From contig NC_092012.1 of the NCBI RefSeq assembly GCF_042242105.1, forward strand, positions 8,375,470-8,439,469: 64,000 bases of DNA. The letters are read 5' to 3'. The DNA is from Pempheris klunzingeri (Eukaryota > Chordata > Actinopteri > Acropomatiformes > Pempheridae). Positions within the stretch are counted from its first letter, which is position 1. Every line of letters starts with the position of its first letter. This document shows positions 1,947 to 47,032 of this stretch, one piece after another. The translations under genes were made by a program, and so were the position numbers. The notes below the pieces were generated by a model. It was given only the letters and a program-made list of their open reading frames with translations. It did not search any database and had not been told where the DNA came from.

Positions 1947-12793
<10,847 letters not shown>

Positions 12794-23542: not shown

Positions 23543-26500
23543 ATGGCAGATGTTGTAAGTCTTGACGAGGAGCCAAAGCAAGAGGAATCTATCGCATCCA
23601 CCAAGTCCGAAAACGAGGAGGAGAGTGTTACTGAAGAAAGACCCAATGGCGTGAAAACGTATGTAAAAGTTATGTAAGCTAACGTTATTGTTCTGTCCGT
23701 CCCGCCTGTGCAGCCGTTAGCTAGCTTAGCTAAAATGGAGTCCTGTGATGCTAGCTATTGTTAGCCATGAAGGCTACAACCTCTGTTATCTAACAATATA
23801 GTCTTTAAGTACCTGAGAGATAGTGAAGTAGATGTTTGGCTAAGAGCTAACACGACGCTAAAAATTATGCAAACGCTATATCTTTTACCACAACGTTCGA
23901 CGTTCATCATGATGAGACGTGTCAACCTCAAACGCCACTGTATGCTACTCTCGGCTATATTTTGCTCGTTTGTGAACTAGTTAACAGAAATCTGAAATTC
24001 TGTGCAAGTTAAACCTAGTTTAACTATTCACCTAGCTGGATAAATCAAAAAGGCTATTCTTGATTTCAAAAATTACCAGTTAGCATTAGCATCCCCGTTA
24101 ATCTCAACTCAGTATATATTTGTGCCACGCTAACAGTAAGGTGAAGTTGGCTGCAAATCCCTCCAGGATGCTTTACTGTCTAACTTTACTGTCTTTACTA
24201 GTCTTAATTAATTACCTGTGCTAGATAATGTTGTATTTTCTCTGCCCCCTACACCTCACCAGATGACAATCTCTCCAGCAGCTTCTATGACAAAATGTCT
24301 TACAAAAAAATGTTATGCGAAGTATTCTCTCTTTACACTAGGAATCCAAAGGTTTCCTAGCACTTATCCATTAAACGTTATGTTAAGAAATATAGTAGTG
24401 TCTTGCTGTTATTAAGCTATCTTATTAAACTCTTGGCTGTTTTTCCTGAAGGGAAGCAGTGTCATTAATGTGAAATTTATAGAGCTGTATCATTCACCTT
24501 GTATCGAAGAAAGTGTTTAAATTTAAAGATGAGCACATTACCATCGAAATGCAAAACACGAGACAGGACCTTGCTAATAGTCACAAATTTATTAACAAAT
24601 GTTTTTTTAATATACCAACTATGCTGTGTGATCTCTGAATGTGGGTTTGAGATGGGCTGTTTTGTGCATTTTGTAGGGATGGTGAAGAAACTAAGGCCCC
24701 CAAAGAAAAGCATGACACTAAAGAGAAGTCCTCCGGGAGCAGAAGAGGAAACCGCTACCATCCCTACAAAGACAAACACGGTGGAGAAAAGAAGGGTGCT
24801 CATCGGAACCGCGTGTTCATCAGCAATATCCCCTATGATATGAAGTGGCAGGCAATTAAAGATCTAATGCGTGAGAAAGGTAATGTCCCCTGTGATGGGG
24901 ATGGTGTCTCCCCTTCTCTCTAACTCTTCAGCTGATCAGAAGTTCTTGACCCTTTTTTCTTTGTTACCAGATGGAGCACCCTGCTTCTAGCAGTATTCAA
25001 TTAGCTTGTAGCTTTCTCTGGATGCACTTAGTGCAGATAGGAGGGAACCAACATAGTGTGATAATAGGTCATTGGAGTTAAATAATTTTTTTTTGGATGG
25101 ACACCAATTTAGTTTGGGCTGATATGTCTGTGAGAAAAGGAAGATGAACTTAGTTACATTGTCACTTGTTTTATGGCATTGTCAGCTCCAAAATGTAACC
25201 TCAAACCAGTTGTAGAATTGATTGTTGAATCATTTTGTTGCATCTGTTGCAAGGTGAATCTTGATTATATGAATGAAAATATTGTAATGTTTTACTTCAT
25301 GAATTATGGGGGTCTCAAGAAGCCTTTTGTAAGGTCAAAGGAGGGTTTATAACTCTCAACTGCCATGAATGGATTCTGTTGACAAACTGATCATGTTGAA
25401 GTCTTTTGAATTTCCCAGGTTTTTATGTAGCTGTGTTTCTCTCTGGCCTTGGCCTTTGGGTGTCTCAGTCACTGCCCAGAAAGGCATGGTGTTGTCTGGT
25501 GGGATGTTGGTCTGGGCTGACTGTTGATCATTAATGGGACATCTCCATCTGTAGCGGCATTGCCAAGGCCAACGGCGACTTGAAGACTTGGTGACTTAAA
25601 TTCCTTTGTTCTTTTGGTATTTTTCCTTTGTATGTCTCATGTAGTTGGTGAGGTTACATACGTGGAGCTCTTTAAGGATGCAGAAGGAAAGTCAAGGGTA
25701 AGTGATGTGGCCAACTTGCTGCACGAGGTTTTAAATGCCCTCAGCAGGCTCTCATTAATCCAGTGCTCTTTTAGGTTTTGATCCTTTGGGTCTTTCTAAG
25801 TTACTGAACTGGAGATACTGTAGGTTGTGTTTAGAGCCTGATAGATGGTTAATGATTGATATTCATTTGAAAGGGAGATGTCCTGTTGATTTTGGAAAAG
25901 TAGCCTAATGAACTCTACTTAAGAGTACACTTTTGCTTTTGTTGTTGCCATTTCAATTGGTGTAAAAGTTTGTTTGTTTGGCCATTTTCCAAAGGGAAAT
26001 GTGGGTTGTGTGATTTGTCTTATTGATTGACCCTCATGTCTCAAAATCTTATTTTACAATTCTGTTATATGGCAGAGCTCTCTCTTCAAAGGAACAAAAC
26101 AGTCTTGAAAGATCCTTTTTTTTTATTATGTTCTATACAAAATCCACAAATGTATGTTAAAGATGCAAAGGTGGACCACAGTATTTTTTTTCATTGCAGT
26201 GGTAAAATGGGTCCATCCTAAACAATGTTCTACTTAAATTTGTTAACGCTTCTTAATTTTTTTTATTTTTTACCTTGGTATTTGTGTCCAGTTCAAAACA
26301 TCAAAATGTCTCAACTAAATTACAATGTTGTTATCTGTGATAATTGTTTTACCAAAACCGTTTTACAATATAAATTAGTATTGTTTTATTTAAGTATTAA
26401 TTGTCAACATTGCTTCAGATATTGTTAAAGAATATGTGCTTATTAGCCTTTTAATCTTGTTTGCAATAGATTTTAACACAACCAAAAACCTGCTGGCTCA

Positions 26501-29500
26501 AGCCAGCACGCAAAATATGGCCAACATGCACTATAGATAATACCAGTAGCATGTTGATACATTAGATTTGTACTGTCCCAGTGCTTTGGCTTGATTTTGA
26601 CTATATTTTGTTCACTCCCTCAACTTTGGACATGTGGGCTACTTGGACTCCTATCACCCCCCCGTTTAGGGTTGTGGGTAAGAAACAGCCTTACTTTCTT
26701 ACATAAAACTTTTCTTTTTTTTTTTTAATCTTACGCCCACATGGACTCATCTGATGCCTCTGTATGCCTGACTCAACAGTGTGGTGGAATTCAAAGACGA
26801 AGAGTTTGTGAAGAAGGCGATAGAAACCATGAATAAGCATGACCTCAGTGGAAGGCCACTCAACATCAAGGAGGTGAGGACATATTATGGGTAAATGGTT
26901 ACAGCAAAACTGAAACGTTTCATTTTTTAATATATTGCTCTCTTAAAGAAACTAAGTTTTCAAGTAAATAAAATTGCACTTTCTCACATTTATAGGAAGA
27001 AGGAGCAGATATAAAGTGACCGTGTGGCATAGATTTCAAAAATTTGATAATTGAACTGCAAACATCATGTGACTATAAACAAAATTCTTCCCTTCGATAG
27101 ATTATTGTCGATCTAGATCTTCCCTTTAACATTGAGCTGATGCTTCATGTTGGTCATGCTTTTCTATAAATTGTATCCACAAAAGAGTAAGTCATCACAA
27201 ATAATTTGTAGTGTTCATTACATCAGAATATTTTTTTGGTGGAATTGAAATTCTAATAGACACTGAAATACCACTAGATAACACAAACAAATGTAGAATT
27301 GCATTGTTCAATTGTTTATCACCAGTTGTACACCCCTTACTTGATGGATTCTTCATGATTATCTTGATGTAGCAGTTCAGAAAAAATTGCAATGTATTTC
27401 TTATTTCAGGACCCCGATGGGGAGCATGCTCGGCGTGTGCTGCAGCGTATGGGGGGAGGTCAACAAGGAGGTCGTGGGCAGGACATGGGTCCAGGTGGGA
27501 TGAACATCCCACCCTCCATTGCCAACAACCCCAACATCCCACCTGACGTTATCCATGCACTGCAGGCTGGACGACTGGGCAACACAGTGTTTGTGGCCAA
27601 TGTGAGGACATAGTAATAAACAAATTCTAAATCTAGCTATTGATGATTATTCATCTCTACTGAGACTGGTGATGTCTTACTGTTGTTTTACAGCTGGATT
27701 TCAAGGTGGGCTGGAAGAAGCTAAAGGAGGTGTTTGGCATGGCAGGGGTGGTGAAACGAGCAGATGTGAAGGAGGATAAAGACGGCAAAAGCCGCGGGAT
27801 GGGAACAGTGACTTTTGAGCAACCGCTGGAGGCTGTGCAGGCCATATGTATCCTTAAGAATTAAGCACTGAAGTAGGAGTGGCACACAAAGTAACGCTGT
27901 CCAGTTTTGCCGTGACCTTCTCCTTGACTCTGGACTCAGCCATGTTCAACGGACAGATGCTCTTTGACAGACAGATGCACGTTAAAATGGTATGCTATTT
28001 TTTTTTATTTTTTAGCGACTATATACCTCAAATTGTACAGAAGATGAGAAAATACATTTTTACATTTGTTACTTGGTTTTATAGGATGAGAAATCTCTTC
28101 CCCCTGATGATTTCCACCAAGTAGAAAAATCACCTCAGTTACCACGTGAGTACATGGTTTTCTCCCAGTTGTTGATATCAAACTCCTTCATCGTAATAAG
28201 CTCAGTGATTTGTGTATAGCACTAACATAGTCCATGTAAGAAGGCATGCAACTCATCTGGGAATGAATGATGCATATGTTCTATAGATATTTACTGTCAT
28301 GTTAGAAGGGCCCAGATATGTTGCTGAAGCAGAATGTTGGCTTGTTCGTGTTATGTTTTCTGCTCCGCATGTAAAGGCATGATAAAAGTAGTAGTGGTTG
28401 TCACCGAAAATATTTAGAAATATTTATTCAAAGATGGAAAGTCAGCTTTTTTTTTGTGATTCTTTATCGGTCAAGTTCCAGAAGGTATGTCTGTTTAACT
28501 GTGGTTAAAAACATCACTTTTGAAAGTTTTTTTTTTAAATGATATTGGAAAAATTAATGACTTAGAAGTAGTAGTTGTTATCTAGTAAAGTCCTTGTATT
28601 CAAAGACCTGCCAGTCAATTTGAGTTGTAGCTGGTTCCCATTTTATGGTGTGCTTGTTTATTAATGGAGCGGACAGAGGTCTGATGTCTGCATTGAAAGT
28701 ACAGGCTCGCCACATGGTTGAACAAATAACATCTGTTCATCTACCCAACAGTAATGTCTGTTTACCTTTTTGTTGTTCAGTGTGCTCGAGCAGTACGTCT
28801 TCCATTATTGAGAGTTGGTTCATTGCAAATGCATTCATCAAAAGATGTCTTGATACATTTACTTTTCACTAAATGACTTTTTACTAAGTGTACAGATTTT
28901 TAAAAATTGAATGTATGTTAAGATAAATGTCACTAATGTCATTAACTATTGATTTGGCTTTGTATAAATTATATGGTAGGCAATTCTAGCGTAGAGCTAG
29001 TAAATTCAAACGTTGCTCTTATTTTCCTGTGTGTTTTCTGTTAAGGGGGTCTTGGTGGTATTGGCATGGGACTGGGGCCAGGAGGGCAGCCTATAAATGC
29101 TAACCGTCTGAGCGGTGGTGGTGGTGGCGGCGGCATGAGCTCCATGGGGCCTGGAGGTCAGTCAGCTCTCAGATGTTTTTAGTTGATGGAAAATGTTCAC
29201 TCACACATACAGTACATATCTGATATTGTAAAGCAGACCCGTCTGTCTCGATAGATAAATGGTTATGATAGAAAATCAGAAAGTCAGCTGGTCAACACAT
29301 TAGTGACACAAGGCCGCATTGATCAACTACTTTTAACATCATTGTCAGGGTTCCTACGCAGTATGGAATTTGATTTAAATCCTTTCCAGGTATCAAGTAT
29401 ACAAAAAACAATATGTGAGAATGGAAAAGAAGTCAATGGACTATTGCCTCTGTTCAGTTTTCTGAACTTTAAAATTCAGAATTTTTAGAAGAGAAAAATT

Positions 29501-32500
29501 TCATTCAAGCAGAGTATTTCTCATGGTGTTTGGAGCAGGCAGCCAGCACAGCCAAAATGTGTACCACTTTTTTACTTTTATTTTTATAATAAACTGAAAA
29601 TATTTTCTCCTCAACATATGGAATTAACAATATGAGCACAGGTAGCACTGGTTAGTTTACTCCCTCTTTGGGTTGATATGTTTGACAGTGGCACGTTGTC
29701 CAACTGTCTGAGTCTGGCCTCGACCACCACAATGCCGAATAAATGAGTAAAATAATGTACTCTGATCTCAAATATGGTCTGAAAAGTGTCTGAAAATTTG
29801 AGCTCGGAAAAGTAGGAAATTTTGAAATTGGAGAATGTGTTGGAACCCTGCATTCTGCCAGTAAACCAACACACACAGTTAATGTGTAACCCATTCAACC
29901 ACCACGTCTTGGCTGACATTTCATGGCTCATCTTTTGACCCTGCAGATGGCTCAATATGGGTTAAAAAGATAAGACAAGCAGAGTCCCTACCAGCTGAAA
30001 TACAAGACTTTTACACAATTAGTGTAGGCTACACACAGTACCTTCCCATTTGATGTAGGTAGTAGAGTATTTGCTTTGGGGTGGCCTGACTGACATTTTC
30101 TGTCCTAGGTATGGATGTTCCAGGTTATGGTGGAATGAACAGGCTTGGAGGAGGTAAGGTTTCTGCTGCCTATTAGAAAGACAATTCTTGACTTTTTGTG
30201 GAGAAACGGAGTGAGCAGTGGTCTAACTAGGTGCTGCTTTTGACAGGAATGAGTGGTGGCGGGGGCTTCGGAGGCATGGATAGCATGGGCAACATGGGTG
30301 GCTTTGGAGGGAGAGACATGGCGCCAGTTGGCAGGATGGGAGGTAAGCGGGTGTATTCACTCCGAGGGGGCAGAGATGAGGTTCAGTTCTGGGACATTTT
30401 TGTTGTTGAGATGCACCTTTGTGTTATTGGTAACTTAAGTCTAAGGTTACTTTTTTTTTTCTGTGTTGAGATATGTACCGGTCAGGAATGGGCGGAATGG
30501 ATCGGGATTTTGGCCACAGTGACATGCCAATGAATCGAGGATTTGGGGATTCTTACGGAGGAATGGGTAGGTGATACTCTTCCTTCAGACATCCTGAATT
30601 CTGTCATGATTAAACATCAGAGCCTATTCAAGTTCTTCTATTTCGGTTTTAAGTTATGATGGGTTTAGAAACTGCTTTCTGTTCTGTGTGTGGTTCAGTT
30701 GACTGTGGTTAAACTGTTGTGGTCTAATCTAATGTGCCCCCAACTTGCATTCTTTCCTTTAGGTGGAGGTTTTGGAGGAGGCATGGGCAGTGGTGGCATG
30801 GGGCACATGGGGACTGGATTAGGTACATGAGATATTAAATCCAGTTTTCCTAAGACTGTGATATCAATTATTCCCTTATAGATGCACATTACTGTTGACA
30901 TTTGTAACATGATCAGCCATCAAGAGGAGGGAGTAGTAGTGCACCATGCTGTAGAAAGTCATTTAGCATCATGATTTGCTAAATAGGTGGTGGGTAACAA
31001 GGAGGCCCAGTAGTTGGGAAGACTGCAGTCAGATGACCTCAGTACAAGCATTTGCCCAGCTCGTGTTGTCTTAAACATGAGGTTCCTGAGAACTGGTGCA
31101 TGATACATGCTGAAATAGGATCAAAATGACCTACTCTGACAGCACTGGTACATGGTATGTGTATGATATTGTGGCCACAGTTACAACACAGTTTGCCACC
31201 CAGTCTTTATTAGGAAATTAACTGCTGGAAAAATTTGATCCCATATATATATCTAATGAGCACCAAGTAACGTTTTATTGCTTGTGGGCAGCCAGATGGA
31301 TCCTGAGGAAGATTATTATGTGCATGTTGTGTGGGCTGTGAATGAGGAAAAGCTCTTACATGAAGCAAAATAGCAGGTGCACCAGGAGACACTTACATAA
31401 TCCGTGTGTCCAAGACCCACCACTTGCACTTGACGTGCCTGTGTCATTTAAAATAGGCAGTTGCACACAAAATGGAAAGAGTTTTAAAGAAAGTGTCTCT
31501 TTTGACAATAGCTTGCACTTGTAGTGCTGTTCAAGGGACCCAAGGACGCTTAACCTGTATGAAGGGTATGTTTTGTATTCATAGGAGCTTACATAATTTC
31601 TACTGAGTCCTCCTTGTGGAGTTAGTTGGTGACGAACAGGTCCAAAGTCTGCTTTTCCTGTACAAACAATGGCGCGGTGACATTGGATTCTTTCTGACAG
31701 CTAATGCTTTAAAGTGATAAAGTGTTTAGACACACTTCAGGGAAATGTCATTAGACTGAATTAATTAATAAATCACATTGTAATGTGTAGTGTATGGAGG
31801 TTTTAATATGCAGTTAATGTCCTAAAATCTCATTCATATACATCTGTGGTCTTTTCAGGGCTAGGCTAGTGCTTGGACTTCTATATCCTGCTTGTTAAAA
31901 TATGCATTAAGTTGCTCTCATTTATTAATGTGTTTCTGTGTGCATGTATTGCATGCAGGTGGTGGAATGGGCAACATGTCGATGGACCGGATGGGCTCCA
32001 GCTATGACCGTATGGGCGTGTCAGGAATGGACATGAACCGCAGCTTTGGTGGCTATGGAGGTGGGGGACCGGGCCACATGGGTGGAGGCATGTCTGACAG
32101 AGGCTCTGGCTCCAAAGCAGGCTGTCAGATATTTGTGCGAAATGTAAGTGTGCGCTACACAGAGGTCTGTCTAATAGGACTGGAGTTACCTGTTCACTGG
32201 TTCACTGACACTGATGAACACATTTTCTCTATGCATTTGGTGCCCTTACATTGATTGAAGCTTTGAAGGGACACAGCCCGTGCTTGCTGGGAATTGATAG
32301 AAATGACTGATGCTGTAAATGAGGATTCATGATTGGAATGTTTAGATGAACTGGACTTCACTGTTGACTGTTTCTTTCATCATGTATTTGTACCAAATAC
32401 TTAATTACAGTCGTTTCATCTGCATCTTGTCCTGCTTATATCCTAATATTGACACGTGTATTGACTCAAGTATATATTTGTTGCAGCTGTCGTACGATCT

Positions 32501-32882
32501 AACATGGCAAAAGCTGAAAGAGAAGTTCAGTCACTGCGGTAAGTCTTTTACATACTATGAATGAAATCTTTATTGCCTGATTTACACACTACACACTACT
32601 CGAAGACGTCTGACTTTTCATTGTGTAAGATCTTTAATCAGGAATGCCAAAATTACCACCACTTTATGTAACAGTGTGGTTTCAGAATGCATTCATTGCT
32701 CATTCTCGTCTACTGCAGGCCAGGTAATGTTCGCAGAGATCAAGATGGAGAACGGAAAGTCAAAGGGCTGTGGAACAGTGAGATTCGACTCTCCAGAGAG
32801 CGCCGAGAAGGCCTGCAGGATGATGAATGGAACCAAGATCAACGGCAGAGAGGTGGACGTCCGTATCGATCGCAACGCTTAG
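23543..32882 (+). CDS. myef2: Myelin expression factor 2 (myef2), hnRNP M-like
   Basis: RNA/DNA-binding protein of the hnRNP M family; MYEF2 was described as a repressor of myelin basic protein transcription. The joined frame gives 579 residues (human 600). Residues 1-82 are acidic then basic. RRM1 is about 83-158, with RNP2 VFISNIPYD and RNP1 KSRGCGVVEF. RRM2 is about 216-290, with VFVANLDF and KSRGMGTVTF. A long Gly/Met-rich linker (about 310-500) carries repeated GGMG, DRMG and MDR units. RRM3 is about 502-579, with IFVRNLSYD and KSKGCGTVRF, ending DRNA. Start: ATG at 23543 (MADVVSLDEEP); upstream frame without ATG support was ignored. A polyadenylation signal AATAAA sits at 33094-33099. 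The gene converges on slc24a5, as in human. hnRNP M itself is the alternative, but the tail NGREVDVRIDRNA and the synteny favour MYEF2. Confidence 0.95.
26670..26677 (+). other. myef2: myef2 8-nt microexon
   Basis: The bases GGTTGTGG lie between a C-rich tract ending TTTAG and a donor GTAAGA. The preceding exon ends in phase 0 after the KSR codons and the following exon begins with the third base of a glycine codon. Only these eight bases restore the frame and the conserved RRM1 RNP1 residues G-C-G before VVEF. Without them the frame shifts. Confidence 0.85.
29346..29850. mobile_element. hAT-like non-autonomous element in myef2 intron
   Basis: The left end reads CAGGGTTCCTACGCA. The right end, reverse-complemented, reads CAGGGTTCCAACACA. 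Together they form an imperfect terminal inverted repeat about 505 bases apart. The CAGGGTTCC end matches a hAT-type family I remember from vertebrate genomes. There is no coding capacity, and no convincing 8-bp target duplication was found. Confidence 0.5.
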
Positions 32883-33978: not shown

Positions 33979-39656
<5,678 letters not shown>

Positions 39657-43581: not shown

Positions 43582-45946
43582 CAAGTAGTTTAGGTGTGTG
43601 GGTGGGTGGGTGTGTGTGTGTGTGTGTGTGTGGGAGGGAGGGTGGGCTGGGCTGGGCAGAAGAGTTGTAGGACTTGCTTGGACATGCCCCAAGTTTTCCC
43701 TAAATCCACAAGCCAGCGAGGATGTGTGCAGACTTTGAGACACCCTCAGGAGCCATTAAACTGGTGGACAATCTGCCATCCCTGCAGACACAGACCTGCA
43801 CAATCAGAGGCAAGTGTCTTTGTTTATGTTTTATGCACTCAACTCAAGACTGTGTGTACTGAAGTAAATAGCAGGTTGTCTGAATGCAAAACTTTGTGAT
43901 CTGACATGAGATTGACAAATAATTAATGACTGCATTAGTAGGCCCAACATGTCAGCCTAATTATGCTGCACAGGCTTCTCTTGTTGTGATGGATGACTAT
44001 GAGTCAAAACAGTGTTTTTTTTATTGTTAAATAATAGACAGCAGTGTGTGTGTCAATGGCGCCCCTGTGTGGTATAATTAGATGTTTTTTTCTTAAAACA
44101 GCTGTCATCTTTATCATGCAGTACATTTTGACATATTATCTGACTTATTATATATCAGATAGTTGTGACACTATGAAATAAATAATATAATATGTTAAAA
44201 AGTTTTATGACTTTGCTCAAATTCTTCTGCTTCTTTTCACCGTATGAGATTATATTACAGGACATTTTGTATTTATTTACAGCAGTATTTAGTTCAAGCT
44301 ATTTAAAGTGTACCTTTATTTTACATTGGCTATGTCATTTCATAATATCGCTTTTCATAACAAACTGAACATTTGACATAGAAAAAATTGATATTTGAGT
44401 TGAAAATGTAACTGATTAATTTCCAATTCGTGGCTTTAATCCACGTTAGTCTATTCATAGCATTTATTTAATAACATATTTATTCATTTGATGGTGAACC
44501 TTTTAGATCTGCATAGGATGTGACCTCAGCTTTCTTTCATGGTATTCATTTATGTGGCTGCAATATGGATTACTACTGAAGCGACAAAACATTTGAACAC
44601 ATTTAAAAAAGAATATGTTAAAATCATCTGTATTCATGATATGCACTTGTATCAGGTTATATCATGTTTGGGCTGGATGCCCGAGAGACTCAGACAGCCC
44701 TCAGGTAGTGGAGCAGTTTGTTATTGTCTTTGACCAGAGCCTTATCCAACCAGTAGATGCCAGTGTTGGAACAGAAAGTCTTTGAGGGCTGACATTAATA
44801 TGGCACAAAGTTTTTTTTTATGGAGAAAAAACAAAGCATTCTCTGTAGCTAATATATAATTAATTTATGAGTTTCACACTGTGCTTTACTCTTTGCTGTG
44901 TCTGGGTAATTATTCAAGTTTCAGGGTCATGGCAGCACTACTGTTCCTGCTATCAGAAACTGTGAGCTGCAGCCATATTAAGAATAAATACCAGGCTTTC
45001 TTTTATTTACTGTTTTTTGTTCCACTGAGATAAATGATTTAATAGCACATTCCACAGAGGCATGTGTATTGCAGTCGTGTGTGTGTTTGTGTTGGAGAAG
45101 TATGGTAAAATAGTGGCTTGGCAAGACACCTCTCCGTCTCAATTGTCATTGGAAGCCTCTTTGTGTCACTCCGTGCGTACGTGCGCTTTCACTTCTGTGT
45201 AAGAAGATACAATGGAAACTTGACAATGCCCCGTTCCATCTCAGTTGTCACTGGCACGCTAGCTGTGTGGAATAAAGTGCCTCCAAACAAAGGGGAAATC
45301 TTTATCACGCACAAATCCTGTGTAATATAAAGGATGTATTCATAATATTGTTGTTAAATTTGTGGTAACAGCAGACTGTGTTTGTCTTGTAGAGAGAATC
45401 AGCACAAAGTGAAGGAGTAATACTTGTCTGGTTGCTTTTCACAACAGTGATCTCAGTCAGAGAAATAGGGGAAGGAAGAAAAACCAGAGCAACTGGTCGA
45501 GCTGCTTTACTCATCATTACACAAGGAAAAGTCAGCAGCTTTTATTGGTTCCACGAGATCACCCTGTCCTATGTTCATGAAACTATCCTTATCATTTGCT
45601 TATCGCACCTTGCTTTCTCCTATGCTGTTCCTTGGCTCTGCAAACAGCACAGGTGTGTGTGTTTTGTGTACTTCGACTTGTTGAATACCAGCACCCTGCC
45701 CTCTGCGAGGAGTGCTCAGTGTTCAAGGTTCAGGAAGATAACGAGAGGTGAGTGGCTGACGCATAGCTCGTGTTGTGTTTCCAAAGGCTCATATCAGATT
45801 ACGGCAGACAGCAGGTTGGGTGAAACTGTAGCTGTATTCAGATCGTGTGGCTCGAACAAACCAGGAACTGGGACTAACAAAGGAGTTTTAAAGAAGCTAA
45901 AGAAGCTAACAGAGGGCTTCCTGTTGTTTTTAAGAAGAGCGTTACC
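43582..45946. other. Intergenic and upstream region of the RING gene
   Basis: Holds a (TG)n tract at about 43606-43632 and otherwise AT-rich DNA. A 205-codon open frame at 45432-46049 overlaps the next gene in another frame, starts at TTG and has no family features. A direct duplication AAAGAAGCT/AAAGAAGCT sits just upstream of the next start codon. The promoter could not be placed. Confidence 0.5.
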
Positions 45947-47032
45947 ATGGGCAAGAAGACACAACACAGTCTGCTGCTTTTGCTGTGTTTGTCAGGGCTT
46001 GTTCACTGCTCAGCTGCCTTCGTGTTTTGGACAGCTGTGCTGGAAATAAGCTATGTTAACAGCAACAATGAGACTGTGGACAAATATTGTGAGTGCGGGG
46101 TGTATGGTCGCAACTCTCCCCTGAACAAAGCCTCAGGCACTGTTACGCTTCCCAAGGGAGACCCCAAAGGCTGTGGCCCGGATCCTGTCTACAACCGCAA
46201 CTCCAGCTCACCACCTTGGATAGCCCTGGTTAAAAGGGGCAACTGTACCTTCAGTGAGAAGATCAATGCAGCCAAACGACAAGGAGCAGCTGGTGTGGTG
46301 GTGTATAATGTGGATGGCAGTGGCAACAGCACCACTCACATGGCACACTCGGATGCAGATGATATTGTGGCTATCATGGTTGGCAACACTCAGGGCATGG
46401 CAATCGTCAAGTTGGTGCAGAATGGGACTGATGTTCGGATGTATGTTGATGTAGGCAGCCCCCACGGGCCCTGGATGGACACCTACTGGCTTTACTTCCT
46501 GTCCATCGCCTTCTTCATTGTGACAGCGGCCTCGATCGCCTACTTTGTTTTCATCTCTGCAAATCGTATCTACAGTGTGAGCATGCTCAGGCGCAGCGAG
46601 AGGAGGCTGAAATCTGAGGCCAAAAAGGCGATCGGACGTCTACAAGTACGCACACTCAAGAAAAATGATGAGGAAACTGCTTCTGACTCCCACATGTGTG
46701 CCGTCTGTATCGAATCCTACAAGGCAGGCGAAGTGGTGACAGTGCTAACATGTGACCACATCTTCCATAAAGTCTGCATCGAGCCCTGGCTGCTGGAGAG
46801 GAGGACCTGCCCCATGTGTAAGTGCGACATCCTTAAGGCCCTGGGGGTCGAGGAAGAGCACAAAGACGACATTTCTACTGAAGCACCACCAGATGTCACT
46901 GTGATCACAGTGGCGGGGGGTGAAGCCATATACGAAGTCCCACTCACTGACCCAGCGAGCTCTGACCCAGAGAGACAGCATCGCTATGACAACAGGGCCT
47001 TCGAGGGAGACTCAGAAGCTGCGAGAGGATGA
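45947..47032 (+). CDS. RNF128/GRAIL-like transmembrane RING E3 ligase
   Basis: Single-pass RING-type ubiquitin ligase of the PA-TM-RING (GRAIL/goliath) class, 361 residues in one uninterrupted exon. Residues 1-24 look like a signal peptide. The luminal protease-associated domain spans about 50-170, with WIALVKRGNCTF and AAGVVVYNVDG and N-glycosylation sites near 41, 85, 99 and 127. A transmembrane segment covers about 179-204. A conserved juxtamembrane stretch KKAIGRLQVRTLKK precedes the RING-H2 finger, whose ligands are C251, C254, C269, H271, H274, C277, C288 and C291, followed by CDILKALG. The closest family members I recall are RNF128, RNF133 and RNF148. RNF128 is multi-exonic, while RNF133 and RNF148 are intronless in mammals, so the exact orthology is open. 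Start: ATG in a good context (GTTACCATGG). An AATAAA at 48364-48369 would give a 3' UTR of about 1.35 kb. Confidence 0.92.
   Translation: MGKKTQHSLLLLLCLSGLVHCSAAFVFWTAVLEISYVNSNNETVDKYCECGVYGRNSPLNKASGTVTLPKGDPKGCGPDPVYNRNSSSPPWIALVKRGNCTFSEKINAAKRQGAAGVVVYNVDGSGNSTTHMAHSDADDIVAIMVGNTQGMAIVKLVQNGTDVRMYVDVGSPHGPWMDTYWLYFLSIAFFIVTAASIAYFVFISANRIYSVSMLRRSERRLKSEAKKAIGRLQVRTLKKNDEETASDSHMCAVCIESYKAGEVVTVLTCDHIFHKVCIEPWLLERRTCPMCKCDILKALGVEEEHKDDISTEAPPDVTVITVAGGEAIYEVPLTDPASSDPERQHRYDNRAFEGDSEAARG

Follow-up and report, generated by a model that had tools for sequence, protein, structure and literature searches.

Within the 64,000-nt stretch of the Pempheris klunzingeri genome analysed here (the window), an original prediction placed an 8-nt microexon inside RRM1 of a myef2 gene and likened it to neuronal microexons controlled by SRRM4. 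This raises the question of whether so short a segment is a real exon and, if it is, whether it is a required part of the message or a switch that can be turned on and off.

The myef2 gene and its 8-nt exon

Members of the hnRNP M/MYEF2 family are recognised by three RRMs, the last two of which are separated by a region rich in Gly and Met. The gene model in the window comprises 17 coding exons and 579 codons on the plus strand without an internal stop (exon numbers throughout refer to coding exons only). Its protein contains three RRM_1 stretches (Pfam), and a Gly/Met-rich stretch is visible in the translation. The HNRNPM chains 2do0, 2dgv and 2dh9 are the top 3 of its 18 solved relatives (E 1e-9); they span the RRM2 and RRM3 regions, with RRM1 outside all three. 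In RRM count, in the Gly/Met-rich stretch and in having HNRNPM as its closest relative, the model agrees with the family. An Na/Ca exchanger open frame lies downstream (33979-34323, minus strand) and an SLC12-matching open frame far upstream (3165-3788), both of which fit the vertebrate MYEF2-SLC24A5-SLC12A1 neighbourhood. The gene is therefore named myef2, as the HNRNPM chains are closest and the neighbouring genes fit. A search of the window against Rfam gave zero families above cut-off. The features that bear on the microexon are as follows, with all splice-site scores taken from a matrix that was not trained on this species.

23543-32882, plus strand: myef2 coding span in the gene model, with 17 coding exons, 579 aa and three RRMs
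25645-25697, plus strand: exon 3 in the gene model (53 nt), (K)VGEVTYVELFKDAEGKSR
25698-26669, plus strand: intron 3 in the gene model (972 nt)
26650-26669, plus strand: 3' splice site of intron 3, a C-rich tract with the end CGTTTAG; score 8.3, 6th among the gene's 16 acceptors
26670-26677, plus strand: coding exon 4, the microexon GGTTGTGG, encoding Gly, Cys and the opening two bases of a second Gly codon; entered in phase 0 and left in phase 2
26678-26685, plus strand: donor of intron 4, GTAAGAAA; score 7.0, 10th among the gene's 16 donors
26678-26779, plus strand: intron 4 in the gene model (102 nt), the retention of which gives a stop directly after GCG
26780-26873, plus strand: exon 5 (94 nt), the remainder of RRM1, which holds the early stop upon exon 4 skipping

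Exon 3 ends at 25697 with KSR in phase 0, and the first T of exon 5, at 26780, completes a GG/T codon that is followed by GTG GTG GAA TTC (VVEF). Between them, GGTTGTGG is preceded by CACCCCCCCGTTTAG, with AG at the border, and followed by GTAAGAAAC, which begins with GTAAGA. Exon 4 bridges the two sides as KSR-GCG-VVEF, which is the RNP1 strand of RRM1. The original prediction was exact in the coordinates, sequence and borders of 26670-26677, and the C-rich acceptor and GTAAGA donor that it described are both present there. Its frame logic also holds, as the 579 codons are open with the eight bases and the frame is shifted without them, and the RNP1 Gly and Cys are encoded as it proposed, together with two bases of the following Gly. 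With a length of no more than 30 nt, AG/GT borders and a reading frame that needs it, exon 4 has, from sequence, the size, borders and frame dependence of a constitutive coding microexon.

We enumerated the AG...GT segments of 2-59 nt and length 2 mod 3 in the gap between exons 3 and 5, using GT donors and keeping the facing ends of both exons fixed. The RNP1 residues (KSRGCGVVEF) are produced by 1 of the 55 frame-compatible segments of the gap; the other 54 frame-filling segments fail to give RNP1. The myef2 gap has 79 segments of 3-30 nt, and exon 4 ranks first among them by summed splice-site score. Of the 7,319 AG...GT segments of 3-30 nt on the window's plus strand, 22 equal or exceed this score, which therefore supports the exon but cannot alone mark it. 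In its exact form, the frame AG-GGN-TGY-GG-GT is found a single time on the plus strand of the window and is absent from the minus strand. The pattern AG-GGN-TGY-GS-GT arises in 0.0005 of 4,000 first-order Markov copies of the myef2 gap and in 0.00125 of 4,000 such copies of the corresponding gap in an hnrnpm-like gene (L019, described below); when GTRAG is also required, it arises in none of the 4,000 copies of either gap.

The hnrnpm-like gene

The genome (646 Mb, 439 contigs) yielded 493 RRM candidates and 150 scored RRM hits. Twenty-one loci were compared with the myef2 protein, 13 of them stretches that resemble the last RRM exon in extent and 8 of them RRM loci, and six of the 21 matched it at E 1e-3. 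The top locus of those compared was L019, which reached 507.9 bits in sum where the runner-up had 77.0, and which has 75% identity to myef2 in the RRM2 exon and 58% in RRM3; further copies may exist elsewhere in the genome. This similarity identifies L019, on the minus strand, as an hnrnpm-like gene and a paralogue of myef2 in the same genome. Around the codon in question it is laid out as follows.

4182-4130, minus strand: L019 exon before the microexon, ending in VGEVTYVEHLMDAEGKSR
3407-3400, minus strand: L019 microexon GGTTGTGC (8 nt), between AAAG and GTAAGT; reads KSR-GCA-VVEF
3202-3109, minus strand: L019 exon after the microexon, starting VVEFRTEE

The exon lengths of 53, 8 and 94 nt and the phases are identical in myef2 and L019, with the microexon at the same codon, and exons farther out differ in length between the two genes. 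In the L019 gap, 1 of 105 candidates fits, and the intron downstream of the microexon measures 197 nt. Neither RRM2 nor RRM3 of myef2 contains counterparts of the two introns that split RNP1 in RRM1. Because the paralogue carries the same exon, the microexon is likely to be older than the gene split, and the simplest account is that it probably originated in one event before myef2 and hnrnpm diverged. The vertebrate genome duplications are a possible date for that split. The length would have been kept at exactly 8 nt because any change would break either the frame or RNP1.

Intron 7 of myef2 (27848-27939, 92 nt) resembles introns of the minor (U12-type) class, with the donor GTATCCTT and a branch candidate, CTCCTTGAC, that has its A 13 nt before the acceptor end and agrees with the branch consensus at 7 of 8 positions. 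Intron 13 contains an equally good match to that consensus, yet the match sits at the acceptor itself and the donor of intron 13 is ordinary. At the same place as intron 7, L019 has the similar signals GTATCCTTTT and TTTTCCTTAATG, ahead of CATAG. Introns 6 (27602-27693) and 15 (32144-32486) split RNP2 of RRM2 and RRM3, respectively, at the same place and in the same phase (VAN/L, VRN/L), and introns 2 (24880-25644) and 16 (32539-32718) correspond between RRM1 and RRM3; the matching positions of 6 and 15 and of 2 and 16 may have been left by duplication of RRMs inside the gene. Elsewhere in the window, a 384-codon open frame at 45878-47032 with PA and zf-RING_2 (RING-H2 finger) domains apparently encodes a PA-RING E3 ligase in a single exon.

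Skipping, inclusion and possible regulation

Joining 25697 directly to 26780 gives KSR-CGGIQRRRVCEEGDRNHE-stop, with the stop 54 nt into exon 5, which continues for another 40 nt; from the end of exon 5 it is a further 192 nt to the exon 6/7 junction. Skipping in L019 gives a stop 6 nt into the next exon, and retention of the downstream intron leads to an immediate stop in both genes. Loss of the microexon reduces the Pfam RRM_1 match from 69.0 bits (positions 1-69) to 32.2 bits (1-40) in myef2 and from 66.0 to 29.5 bits, ending at profile position 40, in the hnrnpm-like gene; the half of RRM_1 left after skipping is still above the family cut-off of 20.7. The frameshift and loss of RRM1 that had been foreseen for skipping are thus borne out, in the sense that the rest of RRM1 is gone. 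In the part of PMC6547761 considered here, an exon is called essential when its removal places a stop over 50 nt ahead of some junction. The stop produced by skipping exon 4 is at least that far ahead of a downstream junction, and exon 4 therefore counts as an essential (NMD-on-skipping) exon under that definition. Transcripts lacking exon 4 would be expected to be degraded.

Constitutive micro-exons are described as having splice sites that are stronger and neighbouring introns that are shorter (PMC4317164), and included microexon clusters as having the strongest splice signals (PMC7821500), in the sections of these papers drawn on here. In myef2, the good acceptor (8.3) and the short 102-nt downstream intron would help constitutive inclusion, and the short intron could plausibly be spliced out first; in control microexons the order of flanking-intron removal is about equal, according to the excerpt used of PMC10250204. 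Two points run against a constitutive reading, namely that the myef2 donor is middling (7.0) and that intron 3, at 972 nt, is not short. Strong sites are also not common to both genes, because both sites of the L019 copy are weak (0.7 for the acceptor and 4.3 for the donor), and the copy ranks 18th of 137. Inclusion of the L019 microexon may need help, and its weak sites, with a TGC nearby, argue against any simple rule of splice strength. We nevertheless consider it very likely that GGTTGTGG is a real 8-nt exon of myef2 that is essential, completes RNP1, probably predates the split of the two genes and, as we infer, is present in essentially all productive mRNAs. From its sequence, the exon looks old and required, not like a brain-specific switch.

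Early stops on skipping, found in both myef2 and L019, would also suit autoregulation, in which abundant hnRNP M/MYEF2 binds its own GU-rich microexon region and thereby causes skipping and nonsense-mediated decay. We regard this as unlikely, and hold the same view of its broader form, in which the shared 8-nt exon would be an ancient dose sensor, with the proteins binding their own or each other's GU-rich microexon to cause skipping and decay and with the shortness of the exon easing its skipping. HNRNPM eCLIP sites are GU-rich, with G or GG set between one or two U (PMC8346284, in the part consulted), a motif that the exon's GGUUGUGG resembles, but the GU letters of the exon are largely dictated by its Gly-Cys codons. 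Moreover, GU-only runs are not enriched over shuffled sequence in either gap (8 against a mean of 7.9 in myef2; 11 against 9.1 in L019). The weak L019 acceptor is also in keeping with autoregulation, as is an HNRNPM essential exon that is a low-confidence autoregulatory candidate in PMC6547761. However, that candidate has q = 0.7, its exon number is not given in the part of the paper considered, and the authors there call the false-positive share of such predictions unclear.

Regulation by SRRM4, with the microexon included chiefly in neurons and skipped elsewhere, was the comparison that the original prediction drew, and for myef2 it is not supported. The passages considered of PMC10250204 and PMC5247714 describe SRRM4 targets as tending toward weak 3' splice sites with UGC near the 3' site, and in those of PMC7821500 a fraction of 0.74 of the microexons in neuronal, muscular and some neuromuscular clusters is in frame. 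In myef2 intron 3, no TGC starts within the last 85 nt, the nearest starting 88 nt before exon 4, and the acceptor is good, so both hallmarks are missing. Exon 4 is also out of frame, its length not being a multiple of three. Its likeness to SRRM4-dependent microexons is one of size class only. Skipping it would yield a truncated protein and no alternative isoform; because RRM1 is destroyed, any switch would be on/off through decay or truncation and not between two working isoforms. What speaks for an SRRM4-type switch is a gene linked to the brain by its name, myelin expression factor 2, and the L019 copy, which, unlike myef2, combines a TGC 33 nt upstream of the microexon with a weak AAAG acceptor. 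For the myef2 microexon, we judge such a switch to be highly improbable, although the L019 signals keep the idea alive for hnrnpm, where inclusion of the microexon may be regulated differently from myef2.

That the gap is bridged otherwise, by a different donor or acceptor that keeps the frame, with GGTTGTGG a chance match and no microexon at all, is barely credible given that 1 of 55 candidates fits and that the paralogue has the identical 8-nt solution, even though the support for splicing comes from sequence and the enumeration covered GT donors and fixed ends of exons 3 and 5.

Relation to known exons and meaning

A required exon of this size has parallels, as the constitutive microexon is a known kind of exon. 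As described in the parts considered of PMC4317164 and PMC7821500 (included clusters), constitutive vertebrate micro-exons are, like exon 4 of myef2, very short coding exons that the frame requires. In myef2 the acceptor is good and the intron on one side is short, which is a further likeness. They differ from the present case in that the exon here has just 8 nt, the myef2 donor is middling, the L019 sites are weak and inclusion is deduced. The plant 9-nt AP2 exon (PMC8831610, from the sections seen) is similarly tiny, lies in the core of a nucleic-acid-binding domain and is common to several genes of a family, whereas the exon described here belongs to an animal gene, has 8 nt and breaks the frame when skipped; a common origin is not implied. 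Essential exons such as PTB exon 11, as presented in the portion used of PMC6547761, resemble exon 4 in that skipping is predicted to create a stop over 50 nt ahead of a later junction, although the myef2 exon is assigned to this group by its predicted skip product.

No publication on this exon was found among the open-licence papers searched, as far as their accessible text goes. In the same set, no co-mention of MYEF2 and microexon was found, and co-mentions of HNRNPM and microexon were incidental in the portions of the papers examined. The exon may well already be annotated in genome databases. Exons below 10 nt are easily overlooked, and the sensitivity of STAR drops drastically below that length (PMC7821500, in the part considered). 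Models of myef2 and hnrnpm that lack the microexon are frameshifted within RRM1. Two paralogues with the same 8-nt solution at an RNP1 codon offer a clean case in which to ask how the spliceosome handles a microexon that is conserved and indispensable, and the pair raises the further question of whether occasional failure to splice it is used for dosage control.
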